Source: Sinohyriopsis cumingii
Taxonomy: Eukaryota > Mollusca > Bivalvia > Unionida > Unionidae
Reading direction: 5' to 3'
Length of the DNA: 64,000 nucleotides
Assembly (NCBI GenBank): GCA_028554795.2
Contig: CM068842.1
Span: forward strand, 27,977,577-28,041,576
A program made the position numbers and the translations under genes. The notes under the pieces were generated by a model. It was not told the origin of the DNA and made no database searches. It saw nothing but the letters and a program-made list of their open reading frames with translations. Positions 4,502-52,673 of this stretch are shown here, in pieces (the stretch's first letter is position 1; each line of letters starts with the position of its first letter).

Positions 4502-4831
4502 AGTAGTAAGGTGGGGCACCCTAGGGACAATGGGACTTAGCATTAAAAAGACCCCTGGGCAACTCTAGGGACAATGGAAATTTAACATGGAGAAAAATCG
4601 TGGGTTACTCTAGGGACAATGGGAATTTAACATAGAGTTTGGGTCTGTCTAGGGACAAGGGAAATTAACATGGGGAATAGAGTTTGGGCTTTTGGGGTTT
4701 TTTTTGTTTTTTTTAAAAAAAATTTTAAATTTAAATTTAAATTTAAATTTAAATTTAAAAAAAAGGAGTAGGCAATGGAAAGGCTATCTCTTTTCGAGAA
4801 ATATGGCTGGCCCTGAAAAGGGCCTTTGGGT
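4502..4831 (+). repeat. Left TIR of copy A
   Basis: Inverted match to 21331-21655. Starts AGTAGTAAGGTGGGGCACCC. It holds four to five direct repeats of a CTAGGGACAATGG..TTAACATGG unit, then an (AAATTT)n tract at about 4725-4760, then a conserved inner segment containing the stem-loop at 4809-4824 (read on the minus strand). It ends where GGCCTTTGGGT stops matching. Confidence 0.93.
4809..4824 (-). terminator. Histone-type 3' stem-loop after SL1 (copy A)
   Basis: Minus-strand sequence GGCCCTTTTCAGGGCC: 6-bp stem and TTTC loop, as in metazoan replication-dependent histone mRNAs. It is preceded by CCAAA and followed by AGCCA, then CTCGAAAAGAGA about 14 nt later, which resembles a U7-binding histone downstream element. 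It starts 28 nt after the SL1 stop codon and lies inside the TIR. Confidence 0.8.
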
Positions 4832-4852
4832 TTTCTTCTTCTTCTTCTGCTT

Positions 4853-5239
4853 CTAATTTCTTCTTTTTCTCCACCAAGTTCTTATTTTATCTCCAACACT
4901 CTTTCTCTTCTTCTCTTTCTTTTTCTCCTGCTCTTCTTTCTTCTTCTCTTCCTCCTCTTCTTTCTTCCTCTTCTCATTTTCTTCTTCTTTTTCAATCTTT
5001 TCGTTCCATTTGCTTATTCTTATTCTTTCCTCTTCATCCTCCTTCTCCTCCTTTATCTCTTTCATGACACCACTAATCTTGTCCTTTACCTTTTTTAAGT
5101 TATTAATTTCCATCTTTACACGATGGGGACTATAGGAATAATGGTCTTCAACCAGTCTTATCAACATCTGCTCCATCATTCCTAAGTTGTCTAAAACGTC
5201 TTGTAATGTTTGTATTTTGTCCATTTGGTTAGAAGCCAT
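4853..5239 (-). CDS. SL1: small charged coiled-coil protein (128 aa)
   Basis: Unrecognised accessory protein. The N-terminal 60 residues are predicted helical with a heptad-like pattern (LQDVLDNLGMMEQMLIRLVEDH). The remainder is a long Glu/Lys-rich coiled coil, and the C-terminus is basic (TWWRKRRN). The ATG at 5237-5239 has a TATA-like TATAAGAA at 5289-5296, about 50 bp upstream, with the conserved 30-bp promoter module directly beyond it. The gene reads outward into the left TIR, and its mRNA 3' end is probably set by the histone-type stem-loop 28 nt past the stop. It resembles SL2 and SL3 in length, layout and regulation, so the three may be paralogues; that is inference. Copy B carries an early stop in this gene. 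Confidence 0.72.
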   Translation of the reverse strand: MASNQMDKIQTLQDVLDNLGMMEQMLIRLVEDHYSYSPHRVKMEINNLKKVKDKISGVMKEIKEEKEDEEERIRISKWNEKIEKEEENEKRKKEEEEEKKKEEQEKKKEKKRKSVGDKIRTWWRKRRN

Positions 5240-5288
5240 CTTCTTTTTTTATTCTTTGCAGAATGGTTTGAACGACGAATACTGTGGG

Positions 5289-5396
5289 TTCTTATACTTA
5301 AAGCGCGTACGTGAAGGAAAACATCCCCCTAAAACGTAAAATTGATCTTACCTAGATCATGACCAAACAACGCGCGGACGTGAAGGAAAACATCCG
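5289..5396 (-). promoter_or_regulatory. SL1 promoter: TATA-like box plus two copies of a conserved module
   Basis: TATAAGAA (5289-5296, minus) is followed upstream by two direct copies of a GCGCG(G/T)ACGTGAAGGAAAACATCC module at 5301-5330 and 5371-5396. They are separated by an ATTGATCTTACCTAGATCAT segment that itself recurs upstream of SL2. Confidence 0.65.
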
Positions 5397-5419
5397 CTAC
5401 TTTTTCATTTCATATAATA

Positions 5420-5990
5420 AAACCCAAACTATACTCTCCACATACGCTAAGAAACAATAAACAAATCCATAATCTACTATCCACACAATCCTACGTGAGC
5501 GGGTACAAACACAAACACACAAACACAAACACACAAACACATACGCTAAGAAACAATAAACAAAATCCATAATCTACTATCCTCACAATCGTACGTGAGC
5601 GCTTACAAAACCCAAACTATACTCTCCACATACGCTAAGAAACAATAAACAAATCCATAATCTACTATCCACACAATCGTACGTGAGCGGGTACAAACAC
5701 AAACACACAAACACAAACACACAAACACATACGCTAAGAAACAATAAACAAAATCCATAATCTACTATCCACACAATCGTACGTGAGCGCTTACAAAACC
5801 CTAACTATACTCTCCACATACGCTAAGAAACAATAAACAAATCCATAATCTACTATCCACACAATCGTACGTGAGCGCTTACAGAACCCTAACTATACTC
5901 TTCACCTACGCTAAGAAACAATAAAGAAACCCATAATCTACTATTCCCACAAACATACCTTAGCTCTTACAAGCACCAACACACAAACAC
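5420..5990. repeat. Tandem array in the SL1-SL2 intergenic region
   Basis: Repeats containing CATACGCTAAGAAACAATAAACAAA, TCCATAATCTACTATCC and CGTACGTGAGCG recur about six times, some with an inserted (CAAACACA)n stretch. Copy B has the same array with fewer units (about 36530-36935). No gene is visible. Confidence 0.85.
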
Positions 5991-6091
5991 ATACCCTCAC
6001 ACTATCTTAAAAAAGAGTTAGTGTTTATATTCACACTACTCTACCTACACATTGGCAAATTGATGGTTATTTCTTTTCTAGAGTATTGGGT

Positions 6092-6107
6092 AGCCCTGAA
6101 AAGGGCT
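6092..6107 (-). terminator. Histone-type 3' stem-loop after SL2 (copy A)
   Basis: Minus strand AGCCCTTTTCAGGGCT: same 6-bp stem and TTTC loop with the closing pair changed from G-C to A-T. It is followed directly by ACCCA and then TCTAGAAAAGAAATAA. It starts 32 nt after the SL2 stop. Confidence 0.8.
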
Positions 6108-6139
6108 GTTTTTTTGTTTGGAACTTCATGGACACCTGG

Positions 6140-6517
6140 TTAATGGTGGCACCTTCCAGGCCTGGCGCCGCATACACATCTTGTCCCCCAGTTACTTTTT
6201 ACCTTTTTGGGGGAGAGAGCAGAGGCAGGATATGTCGCTTCAGAATCCCAATTTTCGCTCTCTGGGATTCTGAAATTTCTTCTTCTTCTCTCCTTTTCCT
6301 CCTCCTCCTCTTCTTTGTATCTTCTCTCCTCCTCTTTGTATCTTCTTTCCTCTTCTTCTTTATATCTTCTCTCCTCCTCTTCTTTGTTTCTTCTTTCCTC
6401 CTCCTCTCTTATCCTTCCCTCCTCCACAATGGCTTCCGCGGCCAGTTCATTTAATATGCGCCTGGCATATTCCAGATGCACATGAAGTTCCAACAGTTTC
6501 TCCAGTCTCGTGTTCAT
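6140..6517 (-). CDS. SL2: small Glu/Arg-rich coiled-coil protein (125 aa)
   Basis: Unrecognised accessory protein. The N-terminal helix (LEKLLELHVHLEYARRIL) resembles the start of SL3. It is followed by four to five imperfect RRYKEEEE repeats forming a charged coiled coil, then a non-repetitive tail ending in CVCGARPGRCHH. The ATG is at 6515-6517 and a TATAAAT box lies at 6569-6575. The promoter module follows, and a histone-type stem-loop lies downstream. Copy B has the same frame, but its ATG has become TTG. Confidence 0.7.
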   Translation of the reverse strand: MNTRLEKLLELHVHLEYARRILNELAAEAIVEEGRIREEEERRNKEEEERRYKEEEERRYKEEERRYKEEEEEEKERRRRNFRIPESENWDSEATYPASALSPKKVKSNWGTRCVCGARPGRCHH

Positions 6518-6568
6518 TTTTGGTGTTGATCAATCAACAAGGGTAGCTGGACTGCCGAACGAGTTTCA

Positions 6569-6609
6569 ATTTATAGTGAAAGCGCGGACGTGATGGAAAA
6601 CATCCCCCT
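6569..6609 (-). promoter_or_regulatory. SL2 promoter: TATA box and conserved module
   Basis: TATAAAT on the minus strand at 6569-6575, 52 bp before the ATG, and directly upstream the AGCGCGGACGTGATGGAAAA module continuing to 6609. Confidence 0.65.
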
Positions 6610-6890
6610 AAAAACATAAAATTGATCTTACCTAGATCATAACCAAAAAAAAAACAACAACGCGCGGACCTAAAAGAAACACTCACTCACTTTTTTATGC
6701 TACCCATCACTATTTTAAAATTTTTTATAAATCACTTCAATAGACTATCCACATACGCAAAGCAATCCAATCTAACCCCAAATTTACACCTCAAACACCA
6801 AAAAAAAAAAAAAAAAAAGACATCATTTTAATCTACTATCCATACCAACTTACTTAACCACTTACAAACACAAACACACAAACACATACC
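6610..6890. other. SL2-SL3 spacer, low complexity
   Basis: AT-rich spacer with a decayed GCGCGGACCTAAAAG module near 6661, a poly-A tract near 6800 and (CAAACACA) stretches. No gene. Its right part (from about 6885) duplicates 5985-6118. Confidence 0.6.
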
Positions 6891-6989
6891 CTCACATTTT
6901 TTTAAAAAAAGAGTTAGTGTTTATTTTCACACTACTCTACCTACACACATTGGCAAATCGATTGTTATTTCTTTTCTAGAGTATTGGAT

Positions 6990-7005
6990 AGCCCTGAAAA
7001 GGGCT
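6990..7005 (-). terminator. Histone-type 3' stem-loop after SL3 (copy A)
   Basis: Minus strand AGCCCTTTTCAGGGCT followed by ATCCA (ACCCA in copy B), then TCTAGAAAAGAAATAA. It starts 28 nt after the SL3 stop. The surrounding 130 bp are a near-copy of the SL2 terminator region. Confidence 0.78.
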
Positions 7006-7033
7006 GTTTTTTTTGTTTGCTATGGCATTCTTT

Positions 7034-7390
7034 TTAGTTTCTAAGAATGCGATGTCCTCTGAGGATAGACTTTCTGGCGATAGGTCTGCTTCTTCGGAAA
7101 GAGAAGAAGAACTCTTTGGTGTCGATACGACAATCGACAAAGCCTCTGTCAGCTTCAGGTTGCTGCTGCTGCTCTTGTTGTTGTTGTTGCTGCTGTCTCT
7201 GAAGTCTGTACTTCTCTGTCCATTCTTCTTTTTCCCTGTTCATTTCTTCTCTGAAGAGCTCTTCTATCAGGTCTTCAGTGATTTTTAACATTCTCACATT
7301 CTCTATTTCTTCTGGCTTCGGTATCAGACTGTGTCTGACCCTATGCAAATTCACGTAGGCTTCGTTGAGTTTAGCTAGTTTGGAGCACAT
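7034..7390 (-). CDS. SL3: small coiled-coil, polyQ protein (118 aa)
   Basis: Unrecognised accessory protein. The start is the ATG at 7388-7390; the longer open frame has only a TTG upstream. The N-terminus MCSKLAKLNEAYVNLHRVRH resembles the SL2 N-terminus in pattern. A Glu-rich helix follows (EELFREEMNREKEEW), then a polyQ tract at about residues 70-85 and a basic tail. Promoter (TTTAAGAA at about 7442-7449 plus the conserved module at 7454-7482) and terminator match SL1 and SL2. Confidence 0.7.
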   Translation of the reverse strand: MCSKLAKLNEAYVNLHRVRHSLIPKPEEIENVRMLKITEDLIEELFREEMNREKEEWTEKYRLQRQQQQQQQEQQQQPEADRGFVDCRIDTKEFFFSFRRSRPIARKSILRGHRILRN

Positions 7391-7441
7391 CTTCTTAGGA
7401 GGATGAGTCGACAATGGATGGTTAGACTGGAAACAACCCGG

Positions 7442-7482
7442 TTCTTAAAGTCAAAGCGCGGACGTGAAGGAAAACATCCCCC
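7442..7482 (-). promoter_or_regulatory. SL3 promoter: TATA-like box and conserved module
   Basis: TTTAAGAA, 52 bp before the SL3 ATG, followed upstream by the GCGCGGACGTGAAGGAAAAC module shared with SL1 and SL2. Confidence 0.6.
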
Positions 7483-7584
7483 ACACGGTTTTTGAGTCGC
7501 AACGTTTAGTGAGTGTCATGAGAGGGATAGTAAGAAATGAAAGAGCATCAATCCAACATTCTTATAGCTAAACAAAAGACAAAG

Positions 7585-7775
7585 GCATTTTTTTCAAAAC
7601 ACAACAATTTTTATTCAAAAATCATTTAACACTAAACAACAACTCTAACATTTTTTAACAATAATCCAACAATATAACATCAAACAATTTTTTCAAAACA
7701 CAACATTTTTTATTCAAAAATCACTTAACACTAAACAACAACTCTAACATTTTTTAACAACAATGCAACACTAAA
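7585..7775. repeat. About 100-bp direct duplication containing poly-A signals for the capsid block
   Basis: Two tandem copies of a TTTTTTCAAAACACAACA..TTTTATTCAAAAATCA segment. On the minus strand each carries AATAAA (7610-7615 and 7709-7714). They lie 105-210 nt beyond the major capsid stop, so they are the likely polyadenylation signals of the minus-strand capsid block. Confidence 0.65.
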
Positions 7776-7819
7776 AGTTTCTCCACTAGGTAAAGAGGGA
7801 TAACAGTCTTCCATGGTTT

Positions 7820-9133
7820 CTAGTAATCTAGGATGACTTCTCTCAAACTGTTGATTTCTATGGTATTATCGAATTCTGCATACAGGATGACGTTCATCGT
7901 TTCATCAGGGTCTCGGTCTTTAAACTGAATTTCCACACGAATCTGGCCGGATTTTATAGGGTGGAAATGTCCCTCGTCGCTGCCTTGGTCTGGAGTGAAA
8001 TCGAAAGCCCACAAAGCGTAGCCTCCTGCATAATCCTCGTACGTAATACCGTGACTGGTATTGGTTCCTAACTGTCCAGTGGCTTCGTACAGGGACAAGT
8101 ACGATCTCAAGTAATTCTTCTTGGTAAAGTCAGGTTCGAAAGGTCGGGTACACAAGGTCTTGCCATCGCGACTGACTTCGATTTTGGACACGCCAAAGTG
8201 TTGAAAGTAGAAAGGATTTTTTTCGGCAGCTCCGTTGAAGGCTGTATTCTCGACGATATCAACGATCAAACGTTTGGGTAACTGTCCTCGGAACAGATGA
8301 TCTTCGATCATGGATCGCTGTCCCTTGGGAATGGTGAAGGTTTTCACTTCCACGCGTCGTATGGGATACTTGGCAGTCGTTCTGCTCAACGTCTGACTGA
8401 TGTCGTTTCCCACTTTAGGTAACACTTCCACACGGCGTACGTAGAGTCTGGCTTCTAGGATTTTGGTTTTGTAACCGTCACTATCAGCCATCAAATGGAA
8501 AGCGGCACTGCTACGATTCAGTCTCAGGCGGACATCCACCCCGTTCAGCAAATACTTTTCTTGCAACCACATGTCCAAATGCAAACGATCCATCAGTTCT
8601 AAACTTGTGTCGACTCCCGTGATTCACTTTCTTCGTTCTACAAATCCATCATTGTTGTCTTTCTTTTCATCAGTTTCCAATATTTCAAACTTGGTAGGTT
8701 CGTCAGCTTCCCATACCACACAGGCATTGAGATGAGTGTTCTTGGCATCTATTCCGTACGTCAAGAGATTTTCCAGGTAGGCACGATAAGGGTAAGTATC
8801 CATGCTGCTACTGACCAGTTTGTTATTCAAGTACAAGTCCACTCCACTGAACAAGGAATGCATGAAATTGTTGACGGGAGCTACTGCTTCATCGTCTATA
8901 GCACCTCCAGTCTTATCTAGAATTTTGACTTTCAGGTACAAGTAACTGCTATTCAGATCGATGTAATCTTCGGGCTGTCCTTTGATTTCGAACTCGATGG
9001 GAGCGGAATCGGTCAGTGAGGAGACGGGGTGAAATTCCACCCACTGGGATTCTTGCATCGTCATCATCGTGGGGGGCATGGCAAACAGATCCAGTTCCGT
9101 CTTGGAACAAGCGCAAGATTCTCGGTGCATCAT
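7820..9133 (-). pseudogene. MCP: Major capsid protein (double jelly-roll, hexon-like), nonsense-interrupted in copy A
   Basis: Homologue of the Polinton/adintovirus major capsid protein, which forms the pseudo-hexagonal capsomers. The N-terminal family pattern is visible: LDLFAMPP, then WVEFHPVSSLTDSAPIEFEI, then a YIDLNSSYLYLKVKI strand block. The total frame would be 437 codons. An in-frame TGA at 8624-8626 after residue 169 splits it; copy B has an arginine codon there (AGA to TGA, a single base change). The second part, from the ATG at 8593, stays open to 7820. The start is a double ATG (9128-9133), 18 nt after the stop of the preceding basic-protein gene. A TATA-like box (TATAAATG) lies near 9290 inside that upstream gene. 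The intact version is in copy B at 38777-40096. Confidence 0.9.
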
Positions 9134-9151
9134 TTTTTTGTCTCTTTTTTC

Positions 9152-9568
9152 TCAATAATCGAAAACGTCTAAGTCTCGAACGGTTCTTCTTTTCTTGGCC
9201 TTTCTCGCTTGAAGTCTGGTGAAAGGGTGTTTTCTTCGTCGTCTCTTTCTGCCTTGTCCTTGCTGAATGCCTGACTCGGTAGCGTGCAGGGCATTTATAG
9301 GTGTTTCTCGTTGGCCTAAAATGTCTTTGCCCATTTGCAGCAAGACATTTTTGCCTGCCCTCATGAAGGCTTCTTTAGGGTTTTGTTTGTCGATGATGAC
9401 ATTTTGGAGAAATTCTTTGCCTTGCGTCAGTGCCGCATCTTTCAAGGCGTGCAATCCGCGTGTCACCATCGGTTTCAACACCGGGGCCACCGAACGAAAG
9501 GCCGATTTTAACATATCTCCTAAGCCGTGTCCTCGCTGTCGAGCAACCCCTCGGTACACTGGATACAT
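9152..9568 (-). CDS. Small basic, amphipathic virion-type protein (138 aa; pVI/pX-like)
   Basis: The N-terminus carries a Gly/Arg segment (GVARQRGHGLGDMLKSAFRS) like the RGHGLG-type starts of small Polinton/adintovirus proteins thought to correspond to adenoviral membrane-lytic pVI or core pX. The middle is an amphipathic helix region. The C-terminus is strongly basic (GRKRRRRKHPFTRLQARKAKK), suggesting nucleic-acid binding or nuclear targeting. It sits between the penton and major capsid genes: 3 nt after the penton stop and 18 nt before the capsid ATG. That position supports a structural role. The functional label is inference. Copy B encodes an almost identical intact protein. Confidence 0.75.
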   Translation of the reverse strand: MYPVYRGVARQRGHGLGDMLKSAFRSVAPVLKPMVTRGLHALKDAALTQGKEFLQNVIIDKQNPKEAFMRAGKNVLLQMGKDILGQRETPINALHATESGIQQGQGRKRRRRKHPFTRLQARKAKKRRTVRDLDVFDY

Positions 9569-9571
9569 GAC

Positions 9572-10495
9572 TTAAGAGTCGTGAGAGAACCGTTTTCGAA
9601 AATGGAGTTTCACGGTGACTTTTCCTTTGGTGAATGGAATATTTTGTCCCAGATCTCCTTTTATAGCAATGTTGATCGTGTCCAAATACGACTTACTGAC
9701 AGGCAAATAGTGAAGATGGACAAATTCGCGGTGGACGTGGTAAGTGTTTCCACCTTCCTCGTCAGTGTTCGTGGCAGAATCCACTTTGAAAGGAATGACA
9801 CGCAGTAACGGTACGGAGGTGTGTCCCACCACGTTGTACTCCACCACATCGGAATACACGAACATCAAATTCAGTCCTTGGTTCAGTTCTACCGGGGCAC
9901 GAAATAACTTGCTAAAAGACTCGTTGTCGTAAACGATGGGGAATTCGTTTTTCTTGATCATGGTCTTTCTCATGTCCATGTCTCCGCCCAACATGTCAAA
10001 CAATTCAGGACAAAATAAAATGGACAGGATTTTACTCCGTTCAAATTTCATCAAGAAGCGACGAGCTGCTTTGTGGTACTCCATGGTGACATTTTTGTTG
10101 ACATGCTGCAAAGCTTTCAGAAACACGACATTAAACCTGGAGGTTATGGTGCTGACCAAATGTTGACCACTAAAATAATAGCCTGGGGGAATGAACAAGT
10201 GATAGGTGGTGTACTTTTGTGTACGGGTTTTCTTGTCATATTTGACATTGCTATCCATCCACTGTTGCATTTGCTCGTCATGAACTTCCACATCAAAAAA
10301 ATTTTGATTGGGAAGGACATTGAGGACTTGGGTCGGGTGAATCATTTCTACTAAAGCCACTTCCCAATGGGCTTCGTGATCTAACTGGATGGCTTGAGGT
10401 AATTTGGCCGTGTAACAGCACAACGTGTTCTTGGGAAACACCTCCATGGAACTGTCACTGGGTAAGGTTAAGTAAAATTGGTTTTGGTGACTCAT
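9572..10495 (-). CDS. mCP: Minor capsid protein, penton-like (307 aa)
   Basis: Matches the Polinton minor capsid family (single jelly-roll, vertex capsomer). The N-terminal pattern FYLTLPSDSSMEVFPKNTL continues into a tract with WEVALVEMIHP, the recognisable start of this family. An LNQGLNLMFVYSDVVEYNVVG block follows, which is the conserved C-terminal strand region. The start codon overlaps the TGA of the upstream membrane-protein gene (ATGA at 10492-10495). It lies within the packed capsid block. Intact here; copy B has an 11-bp deletion near its N-terminus. Confidence 0.88.
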   Translation of the reverse strand: MSHQNQFYLTLPSDSSMEVFPKNTLCCYTAKLPQAIQLDHEAHWEVALVEMIHPTQVLNVLPNQNFFDVEVHDEQMQQWMDSNVKYDKKTRTQKYTTYHLFIPPGYYFSGQHLVSTITSRFNVVFLKALQHVNKNVTMEYHKAARRFLMKFERSKILSILFCPELFDMLGGDMDMRKTMIKKNEFPIVYDNESFSKLFRAPVELNQGLNLMFVYSDVVEYNVVGHTSVPLLRVIPFKVDSATNTDEEGGNTYHVHREFVHLHYLPVSKSYLDTINIAIKGDLGQNIPFTKGKVTVKLHFRKRFSHDS

Positions 10496-10908
10496 AATTC
10501 CAGAGTTCTGTGGCTGTCCGAGGGGTTACTGGACGTCAGAGGCGTGTCTCCGCCCAAAATGGGGTTCTGGTTGTGATTGAAGTGGTGACTGGCACTGGCA
10601 CTGGACACAAGGTTCCCGGGGTTCCCGTTCGAGGTGAATTTCAGGGAGGGATTAGGAAGCAGGTAACCGATGCAACTGCTCAATAAAATGGTCCACAATT
10701 GTTTGTCTCCTTGTTGCAAACTCAAATTGGCGATGGCTGCCCCGATGACACAATACACCACGAAGATTTGGCAGAAAAAGACGATTTGCGTTTTAGGCAC
10801 ACGTTCTCCACACCACACCCACAAGGGTTGTTTTTGTAAATCTTGCACAGAAGAACTAGGTGAAGGAGGAGTGGTCGACGTAGCTGCGTCTGCTGTGTGA
10901 AAGGGCAT
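10492..10908 (-). CDS. Two-helix membrane protein with YLLPNP motif (138 aa)
   Basis: The start chosen is the ATG at 10906-10908; the frame opens further only from a GTG. After a Ser/Thr/Pro-rich N-terminus there is a hydrophobic helix (IVFFCQIFVVYCVIGAAIANL), then an ISL-type second segment (LWTILLSSCIGYLLPNPSLK), then a polar tail. The VPKTQIVFF..NLSL..LLSS..GYLLPNP pattern is one I recognise as recurrent in metazoan Polinton-like elements; its function is unknown. It begins 5 nt after the integrase stop and ends in the penton ATG. In copy B a 7-bp deletion changes the last third. Confidence 0.78.
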   Translation of the reverse strand: MPFHTADAATSTTPPSPSSSVQDLQKQPLWVWCGERVPKTQIVFFCQIFVVYCVIGAAIANLSLQQGDKQLWTILLSSCIGYLLPNPSLKFTSNGNPGNLVSSASASHHFNHNQNPILGGDTPLTSSNPSDSHRTLEL

Positions 10909-10913
10909 GATGG

Positions 10914-12023
10914 TCACTCCTTTTTATAGTCGATGACTTGCGAAGCGTCGATCCAAGAATCAAAACTGGGTGGATATCCTTTCCAACGTACTTTGACTTC
11001 TTTGACACGTCGTTTGCCCACTTTACGGGTTCTGCGATCGAGAATGCTTTCGATATCGTACACGTCGTCTTCTTTTTTGGTGACACGTTGTAACTCGGGC
11101 AAATAAAACGTTCCTTTGAGCACTTCTCCGTTCATGTCTTCCAATTTATAGACGGCAGGATGACGGCCATGCACTCGTCCAGTGACGCGAAACAATTCGG
11201 TCGTCCAGTTAGGTAAGTAACCTTTGTCGAAAGTGCGTTTGGTTTTGCCAATGCGCACCCAATCTCCTACGGCCAACACTCCACTTTTCTTGGGGACAGC
11301 CCTCGCCGGGGACGTACCAAACAGACGCTCAAACACCAGCACTTCGTTGTCGGGAGTCACGTCTTGCGGGGCACGTCCGATGCTTCGATGGTAAGACTGG
11401 TTGTACGCTTGCACCAGGTGCGGTAAGATGTCGATGTACTTCAGAGTGTGGTGATGCGTAAAATATTTCCACATGCGTTCTTTCAAAGTGCGTTGAAAAC
11501 GTTCCACGATGCTGGCTTTGGTTTCGGGATTCTCGGTGGTAAAAAAATGAATGTCACGTTTCTTTAATTCTTTTTGGAAAGCTTGGTTCAGAAATTCGGT
11601 GCCTTTGTCCGTTTGCCATCGAAGAGGGTGACGACCGCTTTGTTTCAACACCCGTTGCAGGGCTCGCACTAACTCGCTGCTCGATTTGGAAGTCAAGGGT
11701 ACGACCCAAGCAAATTTGGAAAAGACGTCGATGACACAAAACAAATATTTGTAGCCACGATTGTAGCTGGCCAAATGAGAGACATCGGCTAAATCGGCTT
11801 GCCATTGATGATCGATGCCTTCCACTTGGGTGCGACTTCTGGCAAACTTGCGTCGAATGGGTTTGTGTAAAGTGTAGGTAGCTTGTTCTTGTAACCATCG
11901 TTGCACTTGAGGTAAACGGAGACTTTTCAGTCGAGTTTTGGCATCACGATACAATTTTTGAACTCCTGCGTAACCTGCAGGATGGGAGGGATCGTAGTAA
12001 ATGCTGGCTAAGACTTTTTCCAT
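10914..12023 (-). CDS. INT: Retroviral-type integrase with C-terminal chromodomain (369 aa)
   Basis: Catalyses element integration. The rve core shows the catalytic triad as D77 (WQAD), D139 (WQTDKGTEF) and E174 (SIVERFQRTLKERM). The N-terminus MEKVLASIYYDPSHPAGYAG is the Polinton-type start (YYDP..G..GVQKLY). Residues about 321-369 form a chromodomain (VYDIESIL..VKVRWKGYPPSFDSWI), which could target methylated-histone chromatin. I chose the ATG at 12023 because the longer frame begins with GTG. It lies between the LVPY gene (14-nt gap) and the membrane-protein gene (5-nt gap), so it is embedded in the capsid block. Intact in A; copy B has a CGA-to-TGA stop before the chromodomain. Confidence 0.95.
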   Translation of the reverse strand: MEKVLASIYYDPSHPAGYAGVQKLYRDAKTRLKSLRLPQVQRWLQEQATYTLHKPIRRKFARSRTQVEGIDHQWQADLADVSHLASYNRGYKYLFCVIDVFSKFAWVVPLTSKSSSELVRALQRVLKQSGRHPLRWQTDKGTEFLNQAFQKELKKRDIHFFTTENPETKASIVERFQRTLKERMWKYFTHHHTLKYIDILPHLVQAYNQSYHRSIGRAPQDVTPDNEVLVFERLFGTSPARAVPKKSGVLAVGDWVRIGKTKRTFDKGYLPNWTTELFRVTGRVHGRHPAVYKLEDMNGEVLKGTFYLPELQRVTKKEDDVYDIESILDRRTRKVGKRRVKEVKVRWKGYPPSFDSWIDASQVIDYKKE

Positions 12024-12037
12024 TTTTATTTTTTGTG

Positions 12038-12682
12038 TTAATAAGACACCCACTCTTGGAGGATGCTACTCTTTTTCTCTTGGGGTATTTTCCTGGATTG
12101 CAATGCTTTGCGTGTGCGGCCAGCAATAGGTGTCGAAGAGGAGAAGGATGTCTGAGCGGGGGATATGGGTTCTTGTTCCACTTCTGTCTTCACTTCTGTC
12201 TTCACTTTCTTTTTCTCTTGTGAGGAAGAAGGGGTGGCCATCATCTTTTTAATCCATCCAATTCTGGAGGTAGGTGGTGTTGTTAACTTGCGTACTTTTT
12301 CTGGTGGAGTTTGAAACCCTTCCTCTTCTTCTCCTTTTTCTGTCTTGGTCACGGGTACTGGTGGTACTGGTACTGGTACTGGTACTGGTGATGGTGCTGG
12401 ACTTTTCATCAAGGTCTTAAAATCTTTCAGAGTGGGTAGAGTTGTTTCGTCTAAAGCTTTCTGGTGAAAGAGTTGCAGTCGTTGCAAGAGTTGACCGTAC
12501 TTTTGCGATTTTTCTGTTTCGGACAAATCTTGGCGATCCATCAAGGACTGCAATTCGTGTTGTAACTGGGACATCTCGCTCAAATGGGGATTGGGAGGTA
12601 AATGCGGGGTGTGTTGTTCTTGCCACCGATGGTATTCCATCCATCGTTTGTAAGGCACTAAAGCTAGTTTTCGTCCTTCCAT
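12038..12682 (-). CDS. Conserved Polinton protein with LVPY N-terminus (214 aa), function unknown
   Basis: Begins MEGRKLALVPYKRWMEYHRW; the LVPYxxW start is one I have seen recurrently in Polinton proteins. A helical segment follows (DLSETEKSQKYGQLLQRLQLF), then a Pro-Val dipeptide tract (PVPVPVPVPP) of variable length. The C-terminal half is Lys/Glu/Thr-rich with a conserved-looking SRIGWIKKMM motif. A TATA-like GATAAAAAGG lies at about 12728-12736, overlapping the end of the preceding 128-aa gene. The function may be structural or scaffolding given the neighbours, but that is a guess. Confidence 0.7.
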   Translation of the reverse strand: MEGRKLALVPYKRWMEYHRWQEQHTPHLPPNPHLSEMSQLQHELQSLMDRQDLSETEKSQKYGQLLQRLQLFHQKALDETTLPTLKDFKTLMKSPAPSPVPVPVPVPPVPVTKTEKGEEEEGFQTPPEKVRKLTTPPTSRIGWIKKMMATPSSSQEKKKVKTEVKTEVEQEPISPAQTSFSSSTPIAGRTRKALQSRKIPQEKKSSILQEWVSY

Positions 12683-12730
12683 GGGGTTGTCAGGGGTTGA
12701 TTCTGAGATCTTGGAACTTCCGAGGCCTTT

Positions 12731-13117
12731 TTATCTTGCTCCCACCAGTCCTCCCAACATGGTTCCCAAGACTCCTTTCAGTATGGGGCCTAACAAGAGA
12801 GGTAAAATACCTCCACGTTGCACTAACATCTTCTTTTTTTGACGAATGGGAATTTTCTTTTGAACCATTTGGCGAAGAACGTGACGATGTTTGCCTAAGC
12901 ATTGTTTCTGGTGTTTGGACAAAGGGATCGTGCCTTTCAAAACGTTCAAACAACATTCGCACACGGTATCGATGACCTCTTTGGAGGCTGTTTGAATGAG
13001 TTTTTTTCGTAGGGGTGGAGAAGCTTTGGACAGGACAGATAACATATCCCCATGTTTGGCTAAACGTGGTGGCAGTCCTTTCCTTTTCTTTCCTTGGGGT
13101 TTTCTGGAGGGTGACAT
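12731..13117 (-). CDS. Conserved Polinton small protein with ECCLNVLKG motif (128 aa)
   Basis: The start chosen is the ATG at 13117; ten more codons are open only from a GTG. A conserved domain covers residues about 20-115 with the pattern LPPRLAKHGDMLSVLSKA..R..LI..A...I....ECCLNVLKG.IPLS..QK..L......LR. It ends GGILPLLLGPILKGVLG. I recognise this pattern as a recurrent, functionally unassigned Polinton protein. It is strongly basic with a hydrophobic C-terminal helix. TATAAAAAAG lies at 13171-13180. The next gene upstream (13176-14024) starts with what looks like a diverged copy of this domain. Confidence 0.75.
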   Translation of the reverse strand: MSPSRKPQGKKRKGLPPRLAKHGDMLSVLSKASPPLRKKLIQTASKEVIDTVCECCLNVLKGTIPLSKHQKQCLGKHRHVLRQMVQKKIPIRQKKKMLVQRGGILPLLLGPILKGVLGTMLGGLVGAR

Positions 13118-14070: not shown

Positions 14071-14077
14071 GATTTTT

Positions 14078-44062: not shown

Positions 44063-44120
44063 CTTTGAGTCTTCAGGAGCACCAAAAAACACTGATACCC
44101 GACTTGGTCACAGGCCTTTT

Positions 44121-45041: not shown

Positions 45042-45094
45042 GTTCGCACTGTGTGAGACAGACGAAAAAGGGTCTGAGGTTTTTAAAGATTTTT

Positions 45095-45838
45095 TTATGG
45101 GGAGTGAAATGAAGTCGAGGACGGAGACGTGTACAGGACAGGCCCTCCGTCTTGGCACCAGTGGTGAAACAAGTGGGTACGAAATCGCAAATCCTCGGGA
45201 GTCGTAGGTTTCAAATCGACGAGTAAATAGGCGTGTGGCGTTTGAGTGGCATCGTCGTACGCCTGAGTCAGCCAAGGCGTTCCTAACTGTTTGGCTAAGA
45301 CTTGCACTTGGGATTTATCTCGAGGGCTTTTAAACAAGACCACGTAATGCGCATTGAGACTGATGGTGCGATGGGCTTTAGTTTGTTGAAACAAATTTTG
45401 GGTGATGTAAACGACACTGGCATTACGGTGATGCCCTTTGCGCGTGAACCACAGTTTAATTTCTTCTTCGTCTTCTCCTAACATGTCGTCGAAAATGACC
45501 AAATGGGTTTGACGGGAGTCAGAGACGATGCCGTCGTCTTCTTTCGGAATGCCTTCCACAAACACGATGGAATCGCCTTGACTTTCTCGCAAGAGGCTGT
45601 ACGCCGATTGCCACTCTTTGTAACACCACACGATCCGTTGAGGGGGTCGATCGATCGAATGATGTTTATGTTCGATCAAACGTTTGACGAATTCAGTTTT
45701 GCCAGAACCGCTAGGTCCAGCAATGAGCATGTTAAAGGGATGGCGAAGATACAAAGCCTCCCAACTGGCACGATCTAAGTGTTCGTCAATGACTTTGACA
45801 GTAGAGGAAGAGGGAGCAGAGACAGTAGAGGTAGCCAT
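45095..45838 (-). CDS. ATP: Packaging ATPase (247 aa), copy B
   Basis: Walker A GPSGSGKT and Walker B HLVIFDDML present. A handful of substitutions against A. ATG at 45836-45838. Confidence 0.93.
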   Translation of the reverse strand: MATSTVSAPSSSTVKVIDEHLDRASWEALYLRHPFNMLIAGPSGSGKTEFVKRLIEHKHHSIDRPPQRIVWCYKEWQSAYSLLRESQGDSIVFVEGIPKEDDGIVSDSRQTHLVIFDDMLGEDEEEIKLWFTRKGHHRNASVVYITQNLFQQTKAHRTISLNAHYVVLFKSPRDKSQVQVLAKQLGTPWLTQAYDDATQTPHAYLLVDLKPTTPEDLRFRTHLFHHWCQDGGPVLYTSPSSTSFHSP

Positions 45839-46030
45839 GGTGTGAGGAATGTCACTTGTGACACGAAAAAACAAACAAGACAAGAGTTTATATACTTTTT
45901 CAGAACACGTTTATTGAATGTTTTTTTTCAAACATGAATACGAAAGACAAAAATACATAAAAGCCAAAGGCTTAAGTACAAGAATAAAAGGCACATGAAC
46001 GTGGAATAAAAAACAAGTGTCTGTACAACA

Positions 46031-46333
46031 ACCACATGTTTTGGGTAAAGTTCTAACCAGTTCTATAGTAGGGGGTAAGGTCACACAAGTGTCCTCCCGA
46101 AAGGGTCTTTCAGGCCTGTCCACGACAGTCCTGTCCTGGGTGACGGGTTCTTCTGGCACCGTCACTAACACAGGTCGAAAAGTAACTTTTTTCCTTGAAT
46201 AACTCTCGTGCATACTGGGCCACCTCTTGTGTCCAAGCCTCAAAACCCTGGTCTCGGTGATGTCCAACATTTGACTCCTAAGCAATCTGGTTTCTTCTTC
46301 GTCAAGGACATGGTAAGTTCCTTCAATGAACAA
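46031..46333 (-). CDS. Small open frame downstream of PolB (copy B), uncertain
   Basis: Counterpart of 15042-15311. The conserved part ends near 46070, and a one-base difference lets this frame continue to 45911 in B. The first ATG is at 46268-46270. Low confidence as a gene. Confidence 0.3.
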
Positions 46334-46337
46334 TGAA

Positions 46338-49300
46338 CTATTGGTCTTGGACGTTGTCCCTTTTTATATGCTGACCAATATCGATGTGACCGTACGGCAA
46401 CGTAAAGTGATTGGGAAGTCTCACTCGCTTCTGGTACACGATTTGATAGATTCTTTCCAGGGGCCGACTGACGATGTGGTGAGTGGGTAAACGTACAATC
46501 TTGTTCGGTTGATAAGTGGTCACTTTAAAGTTTCCATCCTCTCCCGATTGCAAGGCTTCTTTCAATACCTCAAAGTTGACCACTCGACTGGTACGATGAT
46601 TCAGAGTCAGTCCTTTCACTTTGCACGTCGTGTGTACTTCTCCTTTTTTGTCCCGGTATTCGTAGCCGTAATTTTTGGGACCACCACTGACGAAACTTAG
46701 AATCTTGTCGTCGGGATGCTCGTCTGTCCAGGCTCCTAAACGGTCTCCTTCGATGTCAGGGTGCTGTTGAATCGGGTGATGGATGTAAAGGCAACTGTCC
46801 GTGTCAAAGTACAGGACGCGTTTTTCTAACAGTTCTAAAGCTTCGTACAATTTTAAGCGAGCATGAGCTGTCACGTAAGCCGCAATGATGACATTTCCAA
46901 AAGGGTCGTCTTGTACAAAGTCCAGATCTTCTTCGTAATTGACCAAGATCAAATCCTCTCGAACGACGTCCACGTGTTTCATGTATTTGGTTTTGTCGTG
47001 AATCATCTGGAAGTAGCGGGAAGGTTCTGTCAAATATTCCGTCTTGGGTAAACACGGTCGTTGTGCCATTTTACCCCACAAGCAATTTAACATCACTTTG
47101 GCAAACGATCGCCTGCCTTCGTTTTTTCGATGTGGTCTAAAGAGATGCCTTCTTGTGCGTAGTATTTCTCTTTGAATTGTATTTGGTCTTCGGGAGTGTG
47201 ACACCAGGAAGGATAGCCGCTGGCTTCTTGTTTCAGTTTCAAAAAGGCATCCACGTAGTCGGCGAAAATGCCTTTCTGAGTAGGGTCACCCTTGTGGTAC
47301 TGTTGTGTCTTGGGAAAGTGGCAAATTTCGTACACTTCTAACAGTTGGTATCCCATGTCCAGAGCTTTGAACAATTCCACGCTGACCCAGGTTCCCGTCA
47401 AGGCACGTTCTTCCTGGCTGTGATGGCAAGGTTGGTCCTGGTTGCACGTTTCGGCACAAGTATGGCACAAAGGAAACATCAGTTTGCCTTGACAATGGTG
47501 AGGTAAGACGGGATGGTATAGGTTCGTGGGAGGCAAAACTTTACACTTGATCAAGCCTTCGTATTGTCGAATGTTTTTCAGGTCGATGTGTTCCGTCAGC
47601 AATTGCGGGTGCCCTACAGGAAAGCGACAATATTTGCACACGTAGGGATACAGCGAACACACGTCCAAGTATTTGATTTCTTCTCCTTTCTCTTCGTCGG
47701 CTTGGTACAGCAAACAGGTGGCATTGGTCCTTCCTCCGTACAAACTATCCCTCGGGTTCAGCGGGTCCATGAACTGGTAACTTTCCACGAGGCGTTTAAA
47801 CTCGGGATCGGTTTTCAAACGGTGATCGTACTCGTGTTCCCACATTTCCACCACTTGGTATCCTTGCTGTTCTAACTTTAGGCGTCGCTGACAAGTGTCC
47901 TGGTACAAGTCTTCCATGGTTCGTTGCAAAAACTGATTTTTAGTGTCACGGTCAGGGTAACAGATGGGACATCCGTGAAATAAGCAACCGTTAAACTCGT
48001 ACACGATCTTGGGGTTTTCTAAGTCCCAGCCATCTACCGAATACGTTCCGATGGTCTTTTCGCCTCCTCCGTTGCGGGCATGCTGAATCCATTTGTCTTC
48101 CTTGTCGCACAAGTAATGTAACCAACGTAGGGCTTTGACCGAGTATTGACGCTTGACATAGTGGGTCGTTTGAGGGCTGATGACAGCCACGGTGTTTTCA
48201 GGCATGAATCGTTGGCGGTACACTAAGGAACACGCTTTGGCAATGGTGCAAGCTTCTTTCAAAGGATCGACCCCTCCGTGTTCCATGAACAGTTCTCGAA
48301 ATTTTCCACAGCAACGTCGTAAAATGTCCACGTCGGAACGACAATACTTTAACATTTCTTCCTGAAAGTCGAAGGGGTCAGAGGCATGAGCCTGGTACCA
48401 AGAGTAGAAAGCCTCTCGTTGTTCGGTACGCATGTTGTCGGGATCGTAATAGTGAGCCTCAGGTAAATGGGGTAGAACGGCATGTTGATTGGCTTCCGTA
48501 TTGAAAAAGTGTGGAAAGTAGCCTTTAGCCATTTCTGTCATTCCAAACGTTTTAGGCATTCGACTCAAAGGCATGGCCAAGTAACTCATCGAATCTTTAA
48601 ACTGTACTTGTCCCACTTGGATGAAAATGATTTTGGCTCCGTTCAAAGTGACTTTAGGACGTTCGGTGCCATGTTCCGTATAGTATCTGAGAAGAAACTG
48701 TCCATCGTATCCGGAGAAATTGTGAGCCATCACCGTGGCATGACGATGACAATCTCCGTAACGTTCGATGTCCTCTTTGCTCCATGTCTTGTCGATGGAG
48801 TCTGAGACCCATTGGGCAAAATCGGCTAACGTGTTTGGTCCTCGAAAGATTTTTTCACGTCCTCCAGGAATCTTGCTGCAGTGAGGGCAATGACTGAGGA
48901 TAGGTTCTTGAATGCACTTCTCGCACGCTCGATGAGCCACGCAGAAATTAGGAATGTGAATGCCGGTCTCTTGCATGCATTCGAAATCGAAAAAGATGAA
49001 ATTGCCTTTCTTCTTGTGACCGTCCTCTTTCTCTGGTGGGGGTTGGTATTTTTGCACGTAACATTCGTGTTCCAAGTCCACGATGTGGTGACAAATGTGA
49101 CATTTTTTCTTTCCTCGACATACGTGTGCCTTGGTACTATTGGTACGTATGCCTTGTCCACACGTAGGGCACAATCTCAGGAGTTGACAAGCACATTTCT
49201 TCTGTGAACCTTGCGTTTTCAAATGTTGCTGGTAACAGGTAGGGCTGACAAACGTGCGCAGACAAGTTGAACAAGGCACTGGTTCTTCGCTCAGACAGGG

Positions 49301-50400
49301 TGGAGAGGCCAAACATCCTGGGCATTTCCATCCACAAGACTTGTGTTGCTCTCGATTGTTATAACATAATCACATTTCTCACAATAATAACTGTATCCCA
49401 GGAATCCAGTGATACTGGTAATGGTATCGAAATGTTCATCGTGATAATAGACATGAATGTATTTTCCGTCCTTAAAATCTTGGCCTCGAAACAACAGAGT
49501 TCCACGCATTTCTTGAGGGTGCACTTTCAAGGTGTAGCGTGGAGCTAGGGCATCTTGCAATTTTTGCATCTCAGGAATGCCACAGGGTGTGTCTTTGGAC
49601 AGTCCGGCTTGTTGTAACAGGAGTTCTGCTTGATTTCGTTGTTTGGCTCGATCGGATTGTTGAATAGTTTTCCAGGTTCTTTTCCATTCTACCGTGTCGT
49701 TCTTGTTGGCATAGGTTCGTCCCAACACGATGGCACGGGCTAAACACATCTGGTCTTGAGGGTTGTGAATTCGGACGAGACTTGTTTTGGTGTTGCGAAG
49801 GTTGTCCACCAATAACATCTTTTTGCGTCCTGTCCCTTGAGGAAGAGAGACGTGGGCCATTTTCAGTGTGGCTTTACCATCGGTGATGTCAAACTGGTCA
49901 TTAGATTGTTGTACGTGTTGAATCTTGTCCATGATTTTGGAAGGGGTTAGTTCTGCGGGTCTGCTAAACTCGATCCAAACAAGGGATTTCAAATCGTCGT
50001 GATCTATGGATAGTGTCAAGCGATCGTCTTCTTTGGGTTGACATTGTCGCTTGAGTGCGGTGAGCAAAGAATCCCACATCTCGGTGATAAACCCTTCTGC
50101 TTTCTCCAAGGGTACGTCGGCCTTGAAATCTTTAAACTTCACCGTGTAGGTGTAAGCCGTGGTTCTAAATTTTCTAGAGGAGCGCTTTTCCGTCTCTCGA
50201 ATGGAATAGTACTTTTCAGGGTTGACTAAGGGTGGTGAACCTGGTTTAGAGGGTTCGGATTCTGGTTCACTCATGTCCTCTTCAAAATCACTGGCATGAA
50301 TTTGTGTCAAGATTTCAGCCCTGGTACGAGGCGATAGATCACGTTTCTGCCTCTTACTTTCTTCTTCTTCTTTCTTCTCGAATGAATAGGATCGTTTCAT
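46338..50400 (-). pseudogene. POLB: Protein-primed DNA polymerase B with two single-base frameshifts (copy B)
   Basis: Same architecture as copy A, and residue 903 is intact here (GAA). One base is lost in a TAACC run near 49361-49367, in the zinc-binding region. One base is lost from a seven-T run near 47121-47127, just before motif B. Exonuclease motifs and motif A lie in the middle frame, motifs B and C in the last. The final residues also differ from A after a common FTLPYGH block. Confidence 0.94.
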
Positions 50401-50446
50401 CTTGAGTGCAAAACGTCAAATGACTCAAGTTCAAACACCATAGACT

Positions 50447-50480
50447 AATTTATAGTCATGGCAAACCAGCGTATATAAAA
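50447..50480. promoter_or_regulatory. Divergent PolB/CCHC promoter (copy B)
   Basis: Both TATA boxes (50447-50454 minus, 50472-50480 plus) are identical to copy A. Confidence 0.75.
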
Positions 50481-50533
50481 AGGGTGTGTCTTGTCCTTTC
50501 ACTATTCATTTCACTCTCAAACCGAGGAGAACG

Positions 50534-50978
50534 ATGGAAGAGACTAGCCAAATCGAACGTTTCGTCAGAGCTTTGGGAGGGGTCATTAGAAAATTCTCTT
50601 CAGACCAGCCAACAGACTACTCTCCTTCCTTTCGAGATAAGAGTCAGGATACTTGCTATATCTGTCAGAAGAAAGGGCATTGGTCTTCAGAGTGTCCAGA
50701 CCGTCAAAAAAGAAAAAAAAACAGGGGCTAAAAAAGACAAAAGTCAAGATACCTGCTATTATTGTAAAGAAAAAGGACACTGGTCTCCAGATTGCCCAAA
50801 AAAGAAACAAGAGGAGTCAGAAGAAAAGAAGGATTCTTCAGAAGAAGAGAGGGATTCTTCGGAAGAAGAGAGGGATTCTTCGAAAGAAGAGAGGGATTCT
50901 TCAGAGGAAGAAAGAAGACAATTCTATTTAAAAGAAGCAAAGAAACAGGAGAAGAAATTCAAAAAACAGAGAGACTAA
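50534..50978 (+). pseudogene. Two-knuckle CCHC protein, frame broken at poly-A run (copy B)
   Basis: The first knuckle is in the frame opened by the ATG at 50534, which ends at 50731 after the poly-A run. The second knuckle and acidic repeats lie in another frame ending at 50978. The run has nine A after the G (ten in copy A), and neither length joins the two parts. The acidic tail is about ten codons shorter than in A. Confidence 0.65.
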
Positions 50979-51221
50979 ACAAGGAGAAAGAAGAAGTCAA
51001 TGAACTTTTAATTAAAGTGTTGTGCTGTGAATTGGATTGTAAAAAATGGATAAAAGAATACATGAATGATATAAGGTAAGTGTCTTTGAGTTTTGATTTT
51101 AAAATAAGAAGCTACACTCACGCACTCATACACAGACACGTACTATAAGGGTAAAATGGGTGGGGTTTATTTTTGAGTTACTGGCAAATTGAAATTGTAT
51201 TTCTTTTCGAGAAATGTGGGT

Positions 51222-51237
51222 GGCCCTGAAAAGGGCC
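51222..51237 (-). terminator. Histone-type 3' stem-loop after SL4 (copy B)
   Basis: GGCCCTTTTCAGGGCC then ACCCA then CTCGAAAAGAAATAC, 25 nt past the ancestral SL4 stop position. Confidence 0.85.
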
Positions 51238-51262
51238 TTTTTATTTTGGTGTAGGGGTGAGT

Positions 51263-51823
51263 TTAACCAATCAACTTTAACTGCCTTAAGCCTTTGCCAC
51301 GGCCAAGGCCTACTTCTGATGATTGGGTTGAAATCACTAAGGGTGGTACGATAGGCTTAGTCACAGGGTTGGCGTGTTTAGCTCGGGAAGGTCATATTCT
51401 CTTCGGTCGTGATAAAGAAGTCTGATACATTTGTTTCAGACTTCTTAACTCCGCTAAAATGTCCAACAGTACCGTAGCCGTTTGATTTTCACCCTCTTGT
51501 TTCTTTGCTGCTACTTCTTCTTGCTGTTGTTGCTGTTGTTTTTTTCTTACCTCTTCTTGTTGCTGTTGCTGTTGCTGTAGGAGAAAAGCTTGTTCCGCTT
51601 CCTTTTGTCGTTGCATAAATTTCTCCAATTCTTCTTTCTGTCTCTGTCTAAAATTCTCCACTTGCGGTAATGAAGAAGGTAACGAAGGTTCCGGAACAAA
51701 TTCTTGCGAGGTAAGAAAATCCACAAAATCCCAATTCACCTCTTCTGAAAGTAAGTCCGGGTTCCCTTGGGCAGTCTCCCCTGCTGGTGCACCCCAATGG
51801 ATCGTTTTCTGAGTTTCCGTCAT
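51263..51823 (-). pseudogene. SL4 polyQ coiled-coil protein, truncated by stop (copy B)
   Basis: CGA to TGA at 51392-51394 removes the last 43 residues of the 186-codon frame. The coiled coil, glutamine tracts and second helix are kept. The stop also places the stem-loop about 155 nt away instead of 25. Confidence 0.72.
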
Positions 51824-51884
51824 GTTGAATCACTGTCGCATAGATTGACTGCACACAAGCGCTAACGAATCTATATAGACCACG

Positions 51885-51892
51885 TGACGTCA
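51885..51892. promoter_or_regulatory. CRE palindrome TGACGTCA between SL4 and SL5 (copy B)
   Basis: Conserved with 20922-20929. Here it is extended to CACGTGACGTCA, adding an E-box-like CACGTG. Confidence 0.6.
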
Positions 51893-52042
51893 CAGACTTC
51901 TCTCTTCGGATTGGATGCGAGCTGACTGAATTTTGTAACGCGTGTTCGGATTGGTGAATGAATTCAATCCGTTTCAATCCTTCCTGTACCTATAAATAAG
52001 CGCAGTTCACTGCATTGATTCACCTATTCTCGTCGCTTCAAG

Positions 52043-52279
52043 ATGTGGACCACAGTTGCGTCATCCACCCTTGTGTCTTCCATGCTGTTTAAGACGGACA
52101 TGCTCATGTATGTCAGGTCCAAGTGGACTGTTGTTGATAGGACAGGTACTAGTCAATGGATTTGGAGAGTTTACATAGAAAGACAAGGATGTCTCAAGAG
52201 GGTACTTGTGTATGGACCGGCAGTTAGAAGGAGTTTAAGAAGAAGAAGAAGAAGATGTGACAGATGCCATCTATGTTAA
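52043..52279 (+). CDS. SL5 small basic protein (78 aa), divergent allele in copy B
   Basis: Aligns end to end with copy A SL5 but differs at about one residue in four. The shared core is MYVRSKWTVV and RVY.ERQ.CLKRVL.YGP.VRRSLR; the tail is RRRRRRCDRCHLC. TATAAATAA and ATG spacing are conserved. The stem-loop begins 24 nt after the stop. Confidence 0.72.
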   Translation: MWTTVASSTLVSSMLFKTDMLMYVRSKWTVVDRTGTSQWIWRVYIERQGCLKRVLVYGPAVRRSLRRRRRRCDRCHLC

Positions 52280-52296
52280 TATTAATATTAACATAA

Positions 52297-52673
52297 ACCC
52301 AAAGGCCCTTTTCAGGGCCAGCCATATTTCTCGAAAAGCGATAGCCTTTCCATTGCCTACCCCTTTTTTAAATTTAAATTTAAATTTAAATTTAAAAAAA
52401 AAATCCCATATTCAATTCCCCTTGTCCCTAGACAAACCCAAACTCTATTCCCATGTTAATTTCCCCTTGTCGCTAGACAGACCCACACTATAGTTCCATG
52501 TTAAATTCCCCTTGTCGCTAGAGTGACCCACGATTTTTCTCCATGTTAATTTCCCTTGACGCTAATCTGACCCGCGATATTTCTCCATGTTAATTTTCCC
52601 TTGACGCTAGAGTTGCCCAAGGGGTCTTGTAATGCTAATTCCCCTTGACGCTAGGGTGACCCCATTTACTACT
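52297..52673 (-). repeat. Right TIR of copy B
   Basis: Inverted match to 35571-35949. Confidence 0.93.
52304..52319 (+). terminator. Histone-type 3' stem-loop after SL5 (copy B)
   Basis: GGCCCTTTTCAGGGCC preceded by CCAAA and followed by AGCCATATTTCTCGAAAAGCGA; inside the TIR. Confidence 0.82.

Follow-up and report, generated by a model that had tools for sequence, protein, structure and literature searches.

Two Polintons and ten histone-type stem-loops

The DNA analysed here is a 64,000-nt stretch of contig CM068842.1 of the bivalve Sinohyriopsis cumingii; we call this whole stretch the window and count positions within it. It holds two mobile elements of the Polinton/Maverick kind, whose five accessory genes (A to E) sit at the two ends of the element, and behind the stop codons of these genes stand stem-loops of the type found at the 3′ ends of replication-dependent histone mRNAs. 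The features that liken the elements to Polintons are a family B DNA polymerase, an rve integrase with a chromodomain and a packaging-type ATPase (all by Pfam), a capsid protein (by its relatives) and, in both elements, terminal inverted repeats that begin with AGTAGTAA, together with intact 6-bp target duplications; a protease-like frame, a further likeness, is seen in other copies of this element. The difference from known Polintons, as far as the papers searched go, lies in the 3′ ends: each element here carries two kinds of signal, histone-type ones behind the five accessory genes and AATAAA behind the capsid block.

A preliminary description of the stretch had placed ten such stem-loops, five per element, on the coding strand and 24-32 nt 3′ of stop codons, with ACCCA, ATCCA or AGCCA and then a purine run behind them. 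All ten positions are exact: the pattern RGCCCTTTTCAGGGCY has 10 exact matches in the window as against 0.04 expected from dinucleotide shuffles, and no further site was found in the window when up to two mismatches were allowed. The measured distances bear out the spacing, being 28, 32, 28, 26 and 24 nt for sites A to E of element 1 and 25, 30, 29, 25 and 24 nt for those of element 2, always on the coding strand. The structure consists of a 6-bp stem and a four-nucleotide TTTC loop with an A-rich 5′ flank, and one of the three pentamers (A-N-CCA below) follows directly in 10/10 sites. The purine run is GAAAAGA, at 13 nt past the stem-loop, in nine of the ten sites and GAAAAGC in the tenth (52304), and all ten have TTGCC at offset 33 or 34. 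The Rfam covariance model Histone3 (RF00032) matches every one of the ten sites. The scores run from 41.2 bits (E 9.6e-9) down to 29.1 bits (E 3.2e-4), and up to E = 1 the window has no other match; six sites exceed the curated cut-off of 34 bits, and the four AGCC...GGCT sites fall below it (29.1-31 bits).

Sites A and E fall within the terminal repeats. The stem-loops at 4809 and 21338 therefore represent the same repeat end twice over, and so do those at 35927 and 52304. Sites B, C and D stand clear of the repeats, and B and C have downstream flanks in common. Two of the frames in element 2 are not intact: the one ahead of the 37068 stem-loop has 129 open codons without an ATG, and the one ahead of 51222 is disrupted, with 42 open codons and no ATG. 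An inverted repeat rich in A and T (TATGTTAAT...ATTAACATA), at 21306-21329 and 52272-52295, overlaps the stop codon of gene E; 8 nt separate its end from stem-loop E, and its middle part is not alike in the two elements.

Correspondence with the histone genes of the host

In the known pathway, as given in PMC7026596, SLBP binds the stem-loop, the U7 small nuclear ribonucleoprotein (snRNP) binds the histone downstream element (HDE), and CPSF73 cleaves 4-5 nt past the stem-loop; the purine core of the mouse H2a HDE is given there as AAAGAG. In the host genome, histone genes are arrayed in tandem with a unit length of about 8.3 kb (150 of 662 candidates were scored); one unit (L160) was read. It holds H3, H4, H2B, H2A and H1, each ending in an RF00032 stem-loop of 35.0-39.4 bits that lies 27-38 nt past the stop codon, comparable to the 24-32 nt in the window. 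The host stem-loops read GGCCCTTTT(T/C/A)AGGGCC, and H1 has GGTCCTTTTCAGGACC; GAAAAG follows at offset 13 (H3, H4, H2B) or 14 (H2A, H1), the element's own offset being 13. Thus the 6-bp stem, the TTTC loop, A-N-CCA and GAAAAGA at 13 nt liken the element sites to replication-dependent histone mRNA 3′ ends, and the histone-type geometry asserted in the preliminary description agrees with the covariance model, with all five genes of L160 and with the conservation in copies chosen independently of the motif (see below). The difference is that the element genes encode no histone (Pfam gives no histone match for the accessory proteins A to E) and that the signal is borne by a virus-like mobile element in an estimated thousands of copies.

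When the stems of the five host and five element sites (nine distinct sequences) were compared, two of the six pairs had changed on both sides and pairing was kept in 100%; among 500 shuffles, full pairing was reached in none and two double changes occurred in 21. In blastn searches of the host histone 3′ flanks against the window, all matches below E = 0.005 fell at the signal sites and spanned at most 69 nt (for example H2B with site E, 53 nt, 85%, E 2e-9; H2A with site B, 62 nt, 81%, E 7e-9). What the element has is therefore the complete local signal, with nothing recognisable of the surrounding histone gene.

The orientation of the stem-loops tracks the gene, and their loop, A-N-CCA and HDE all depend on the strand and agree with the host histone genes. 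This speaks against a hairpin that acts at the DNA level when the element replicates, is packaged or integrates, as does the position of B, C and D outside the terminal repeats; the location of A and E within these repeats would fit such a role, to which we give an extremely small chance.

Every element site in the window and each of the five histone genes of L160 has a TTG(T/C) box (CTGCC in H3) whose distance from the stem-loop is nearly constant. In L160 its offset is 33-35 in all genes but H3, which has CTGCCA at 34 instead. The box, which was noticed post hoc from the sequences, is possibly an extended region of pairing with U7. Canonical histone units of about 8.3 kb lie on many separate contigs (numbered C310 to C1131, 24 among those listed), plus one place on C14.

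Retention of the signal in diverged copies

In the host genome (2.9 Gb searched), the 21-nt motif GGCCCTTTTCAGGGCCANCCA has 26,046 exact matches and its reversed control none; at three motifs per element, this arithmetic leads to an estimate of several thousand elements. Twenty-eight of 75 RF00032 matches were taken as genome stretches, all of which resemble the window elements, and histone H4 has no match in any of these 28. One might see in such numbers a set of decoys that draw SLBP and U7 off, or element transcripts to, histone locus bodies, disturbing the host's histone supply. We regard this as very unlikely, because the placement about 18-32 nt past the stops of conserved genes is needed for mRNA processing and not for a decoy.

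To avoid the bias of selection by RF00032, the final counts use copies picked without regard to the motif, either by gene D or by the capsid protein. An earlier set of 33 rows was left out, as two of its rows (L126 and L128, site E) were themselves RF00032 matches; its sites B and C, to which this bias does not apply, amount to 12, of which 10 are fully paired. By gene D, 30 loci of 40 matches were read, among them the window's own (L130). The stem-loop is in place in 30/30 and is exact and fully paired in 25, A-N-CCA is found in 29 and GAAAAGA at the exact offset in 29. Mean pairwise identity is 0.98 for the stem-loop, 0.99 for ACCCA and 0.94 for the HDE, against 0.78-0.83 in the adjoining 3′ flank and 0.87 at the gene end. 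Site E was found in 28 of these 30 loci (exact and fully paired in 23), with AAAGA in place in 28 and A-N-CCA in 20.

For the second set, a Mercenaria capsid protein served as query, and 8 loci of 97 matches were read with 5 kb downstream. Their capsid genes are 84% identical in amino acids and 78% at four-fold third positions. All 22 instances of sites A, B and C that the stretches read could contain are there (sites A and B of L168 would fall past the stretch taken, which has 757 nt left after site C), and 21 are exact, where the stem-loops compared were found as fully paired ones and the unpaired site B of L172, with one letter changed, came from Rfam. All 22 Rfam matches lie on the gene strand, GAAAAGA is kept in 22/22 (offset 13 in 20, 12 and 14 in one each) and A-N-CCA in 19/22. 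The flanks at site A have an identity of 0.58-0.60 and those at site B of 0.68-0.81; at site C it is 0.90-0.94. The flanks having diverged at A and B but not at C, it is A and B that carry the argument for selection. The motif holds its position behind the genes and is under selection.

A histone 3′ flank that was once captured and has since been carried along without function would leave a different picture. The common flanks of B and C and the presence of A and E in the same terminal repeat do indicate that the five-fold occurrence is partly due to duplication, but the conservation of 16/16 letters at 21 of 22 sites, as against a 22% difference at four-fold sites of the capsid gene, contradicts mere carriage, which we hold to be extremely improbable.

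The capsid block and its AATAAA signals

In both window elements, two copies of TTTTTGAATAAAAA(A/T)TGTTGTGTTTTG lie 3′ of the capsid gene. The sequence GAATAAAA(A)ATGTTGTGTTT, the same or nearly so, follows the capsid-protease block in six of the eight capsid-chosen copies, in L127 and in both window elements; of the exceptions, L168 has another AATAAA and L175 has none there. For each of the 11 core frames of element 1, the nearest downstream stem-loop is at least 814 nt from the stop. With an AATAAA and GU-rich signal after the capsid block and core frames that have no stem-loop nearby, the capsid block therefore looks polyadenylated and the accessory genes look histone-like.

An open stretch with GQYC follows the capsid gene in all eight capsid-chosen copies, and the frame at L127:2887-3477 gives a weak match to Peptidase_C5 (adenovirus endoprotease; E 0.0065, below the cut-off). 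The window elements are without the protease-like GQYC frame that L127 has between capsid gene and AATAAA (7610-7820 and 38568-38777).

A proposed histone-type route for the accessory transcripts

It is, in our estimation, highly likely that the accessory genes give rise to mRNAs that are processed by the SLBP and U7 of the host, tail-less and linked to S phase, and that the capsid block is polyadenylated. The accessory genes carry the full set of histone-type 3′-end signals: an SLBP-type stem-loop, A-N-CCA, GAAAAGA 13 nt on and the TTGCC box at 33-34. Their transcripts would be bound by host SLBP and cleaved by the host U7 snRNP 4-5 nt past the stem-loop, leaving mRNAs without a poly-A tail, and expression of these genes would coincide in time and place with the making of histone mRNAs, in S phase and at histone locus bodies; the capsid block would be polyadenylated at its AATAAA signal. 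Transcription itself, the use of SLBP and U7, the missing tail, the coupling to S phase and the polyadenylation of the capsid block are what we infer from the signals in the DNA. That the element in this way runs a two-class gene programme by choice of mRNA 3′ end, with a polyadenylated capsid block and five tail-less, SLBP/U7-processed accessory genes tied to S phase, appears reasonably probable.

Several observations weigh against this proposal. Among the gene D copies, conservation places the stem-loop window no higher than 53rd of 585, because other stretches are likewise conserved; A-N-CCA is missing from 8 of 28 site E copies and from 3 of 22 capsid-chosen sites, two of which 22 are weak in Rfam (E 0.023 and 0.22); and site C adds little, its own flank being 90-94% conserved. 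Neither SLBP (PF15247) nor U7 (RF00066) was found in the host genome at E ≤ 0.001, a search that does not show absence, and at E ≤ 10 the U7 search gave three weak candidates. The best of these (L165, 29.3 bits) was not accepted as the host U7, as it lies below the cut-off and is without a complement of GAAAAG. The four distant Polinton pieces described below have no RF00032 match up to E = 1, a weak negative, as the pieces may not include element ends. Finally, in element 1 an AATAAA lies about 50 nt past stem-loop D, another 64 nt past C, and one just ahead of D, so that polyadenylation, and with it dual 3′-end use, is possible at sites C and D of this element.

These last signals also favour another reading, namely that the SLBP-bound stem-loop aids translation, export or timed decay while most transcripts receive a poly-A tail at a cleavage site further downstream. 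Differentiated cells are known to process the mRNAs of some histone genes in this way. We nevertheless think this unlikely for the accessory genes: no AATAAA on the coding strand lies close after sites A, B and E, and GAAAAGA, which serves U7 cleavage in the known pathway, is retained at every capsid-chosen site, nearly always at the same offset.

Should the histone-type route hold, the accessory genes would form a large set of non-histone protein-coding animal genes with true histone-type mRNA ends and, provided that their processing follows these signals, a major exception lodged in a mobile element. It would provide a testable link of Polintons to host DNA replication and an entry point to how such an element senses replication. 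The thousands of natural variants lend themselves to work on how specific SLBP and U7 are, and the comparison has brought to notice the position-fixed TTG box of the host histone genes. A likeness exists to the bracovirus-encoded histone H4, in that an animal virus bears on histone mRNA supply; according to PMC12819152, that virus carries a histone protein, whereas the element carries a histone mRNA end on non-histone genes.

Distribution beyond the host

The preliminary description had raised an enrichment of the stem-loop after stops in related elements, which is present within this element family, whereas four distant Polinton pieces gave no match. For the integrase, the capsid protein and gene D alike, IMG/VR yielded no relative that could be confirmed, and capsid relatives in GTDB contigs comprise these four pieces, in bacterial metagenome-assembled genomes (MAGs), with 26-45% capsid identity. 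The histone-type ends are therefore shown for this Polinton lineage, but not for Polintons as a whole. Polinton-type capsid genes occur in the bacterial MAG records L161, L162, L163 and L164 and as protein P0180; in several of these records they presumably represent contamination by host animals.

A bacterial-type terminator or chance hairpin was considered and rejected: GGCYCTTTTCAGRGCC occurs in IMG/VR at 101 sites in 101 loci that are unlike the element, AAA lying at most 6 nt before it in 20, A-N-CCA after it in one (L100) and both in none. Protein P0133 (62% to D; from the jgi and ena databases) continues into WPISGPPTSLEKRYYVNCQF, which is close to RPFSGPPTFLEKKYNFNLP, the element's stem-loop, HDE and box translated in frame. 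As this protein reads on into a signal-like peptide, it suggests that the same stem-loop cassette is present in another element. The preliminary description knew of no account of such ends in Polintons, and we likewise found no report of histone-type ends in Polintons or Mavericks in the literature searched, which lies mostly outside subscription journals and includes the accessible text of PMC8097293 and PMC11071296.

Accessory proteins, core genes and coordinates

Proteins A, B and C are small and rich in charged residues. Protein D has 20 relatives with 56-89% identity over the aligned part; it begins with an acidic-hydrophobic part, is rich in glutamine and glutamate in the middle and has a basic RPKR(K/I)RPSRAK stretch. 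For gene E, a basic frame of 75-78 amino acids is open from ATG in 20 of 28 copies. The 439-aa (amino-acid) frame at 38777-40096, which we take to be the major capsid protein, has 1,444 relatives. Several mollusc proteins named F54H12.2-like are among the 120 matches listed, and the relatives named among the integrase and capsid matches listed are from Mercenaria, Crassostrea, Saccostrea, Ostrea, Branchiostoma and one symbiont MAG. In element 1 the capsid gene is split (8624-9133 and 7820-8593), and in element 2 the open-reading-frame list contains no single long polymerase frame.

Table 1. Coordinates of the two elements, their genes and their 3′-end signals within the window
Feature	Position	Strand	Evidence or remark
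Element 1, Polinton	4502..21655		Terminal inverted repeats 332 nt (95%); 6-bp target duplication CAAGTA
Element 2, Polinton	35571..52673		Terminal inverted repeats 381 nt (98%); 6-bp target duplication AGCAGG
Stem-loop A, element 1 (GGCCCTTTTCAGGGCC)	4809..4824	-	Exact pattern, RF00032
Stem-loop B, element 1 (AGCCCTTTTCAGGGCT)	6092..6107	-	Exact pattern, RF00032
Stem-loop C, element 1 (AGCCCTTTTCAGGGCT)	6990..7005	-	Exact pattern, RF00032
Stem-loop D, element 1	20258..20273	-	Exact pattern, RF00032
Stem-loop E, element 1	21338..21353	+	Exact pattern, RF00032
Stem-loop A, element 2	35927..35942	-	Exact pattern, RF00032
Stem-loop B, element 2	37068..37083	-	Exact pattern, RF00032
Stem-loop C, element 2	37946..37961	-	Exact pattern, RF00032
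Stem-loop D, element 2 (preceding gene broken)	51222..51237	-	Exact pattern, RF00032
Stem-loop E, element 2 (then GAAAAGC, not GAAAAGA)	52304..52319	+	Exact pattern, RF00032
GAAAAGA downstream element, site A, element 1	4789..4795	-	From offset
GAAAAGA downstream element, site B, element 1	6072..6078	-	From offset
GAAAAGA downstream element, site C, element 1	6970..6976	-	From offset
GAAAAGA downstream element, site D, element 1	20238..20244	-	From offset
GAAAAGA downstream element, site E, element 1	21367..21373	+	From offset
Accessory gene A, element 1, 128 aa, highly charged	4853..5239	-	Sub-threshold Pfam match only
Accessory gene B, element 1, 125 aa, highly charged	6140..6517	-	Sub-threshold Pfam match only
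Accessory gene C, element 1, 118 aa	7034..7390	-	No Pfam match
Accessory gene D, element 1, 186 aa, conserved basic stretch RPKRIRPSRAK	20300..20860	-	20 protein relatives
Accessory gene E, element 1, 77 aa, basic	21080..21313	+	75-78-aa frame open in 20 of 28 copies
Gene A, element 2	35968..36294	-	Open-reading-frame list
Gene C, element 2	37991..38347	-	Open-reading-frame list
Gene E, element 2, 78 aa	52043..52279	+	Computed from stem-loop spacing
Integrase (rve + chromodomain)	10914..12023	-	Pfam
Packaging-type ATPase (Pox_A32)	14078..14821	-	Pfam
Family B DNA polymerase (DNA_pol_B_2), two frames, 16672-19380 and 15316-16458	15316..19380	-	Pfam
Major capsid protein frame, element 2, 439 aa	38777..40096	-	By relatives; name presumed
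AATAAA + GU-rich stretch after capsid block, element 1	7709..7714	-	
Second AATAAA + GU-rich stretch after capsid block, element 1	7610..7615	-	
AATAAA + GU-rich stretch after capsid gene, element 2	38666..38671	-	
Second AATAAA + GU-rich stretch after capsid gene, element 2	38568..38573	-	

Between the two elements, at 24176-25047, the window contains a tandem repeat with a unit of about 49 bp, 14 copies of which are in register.

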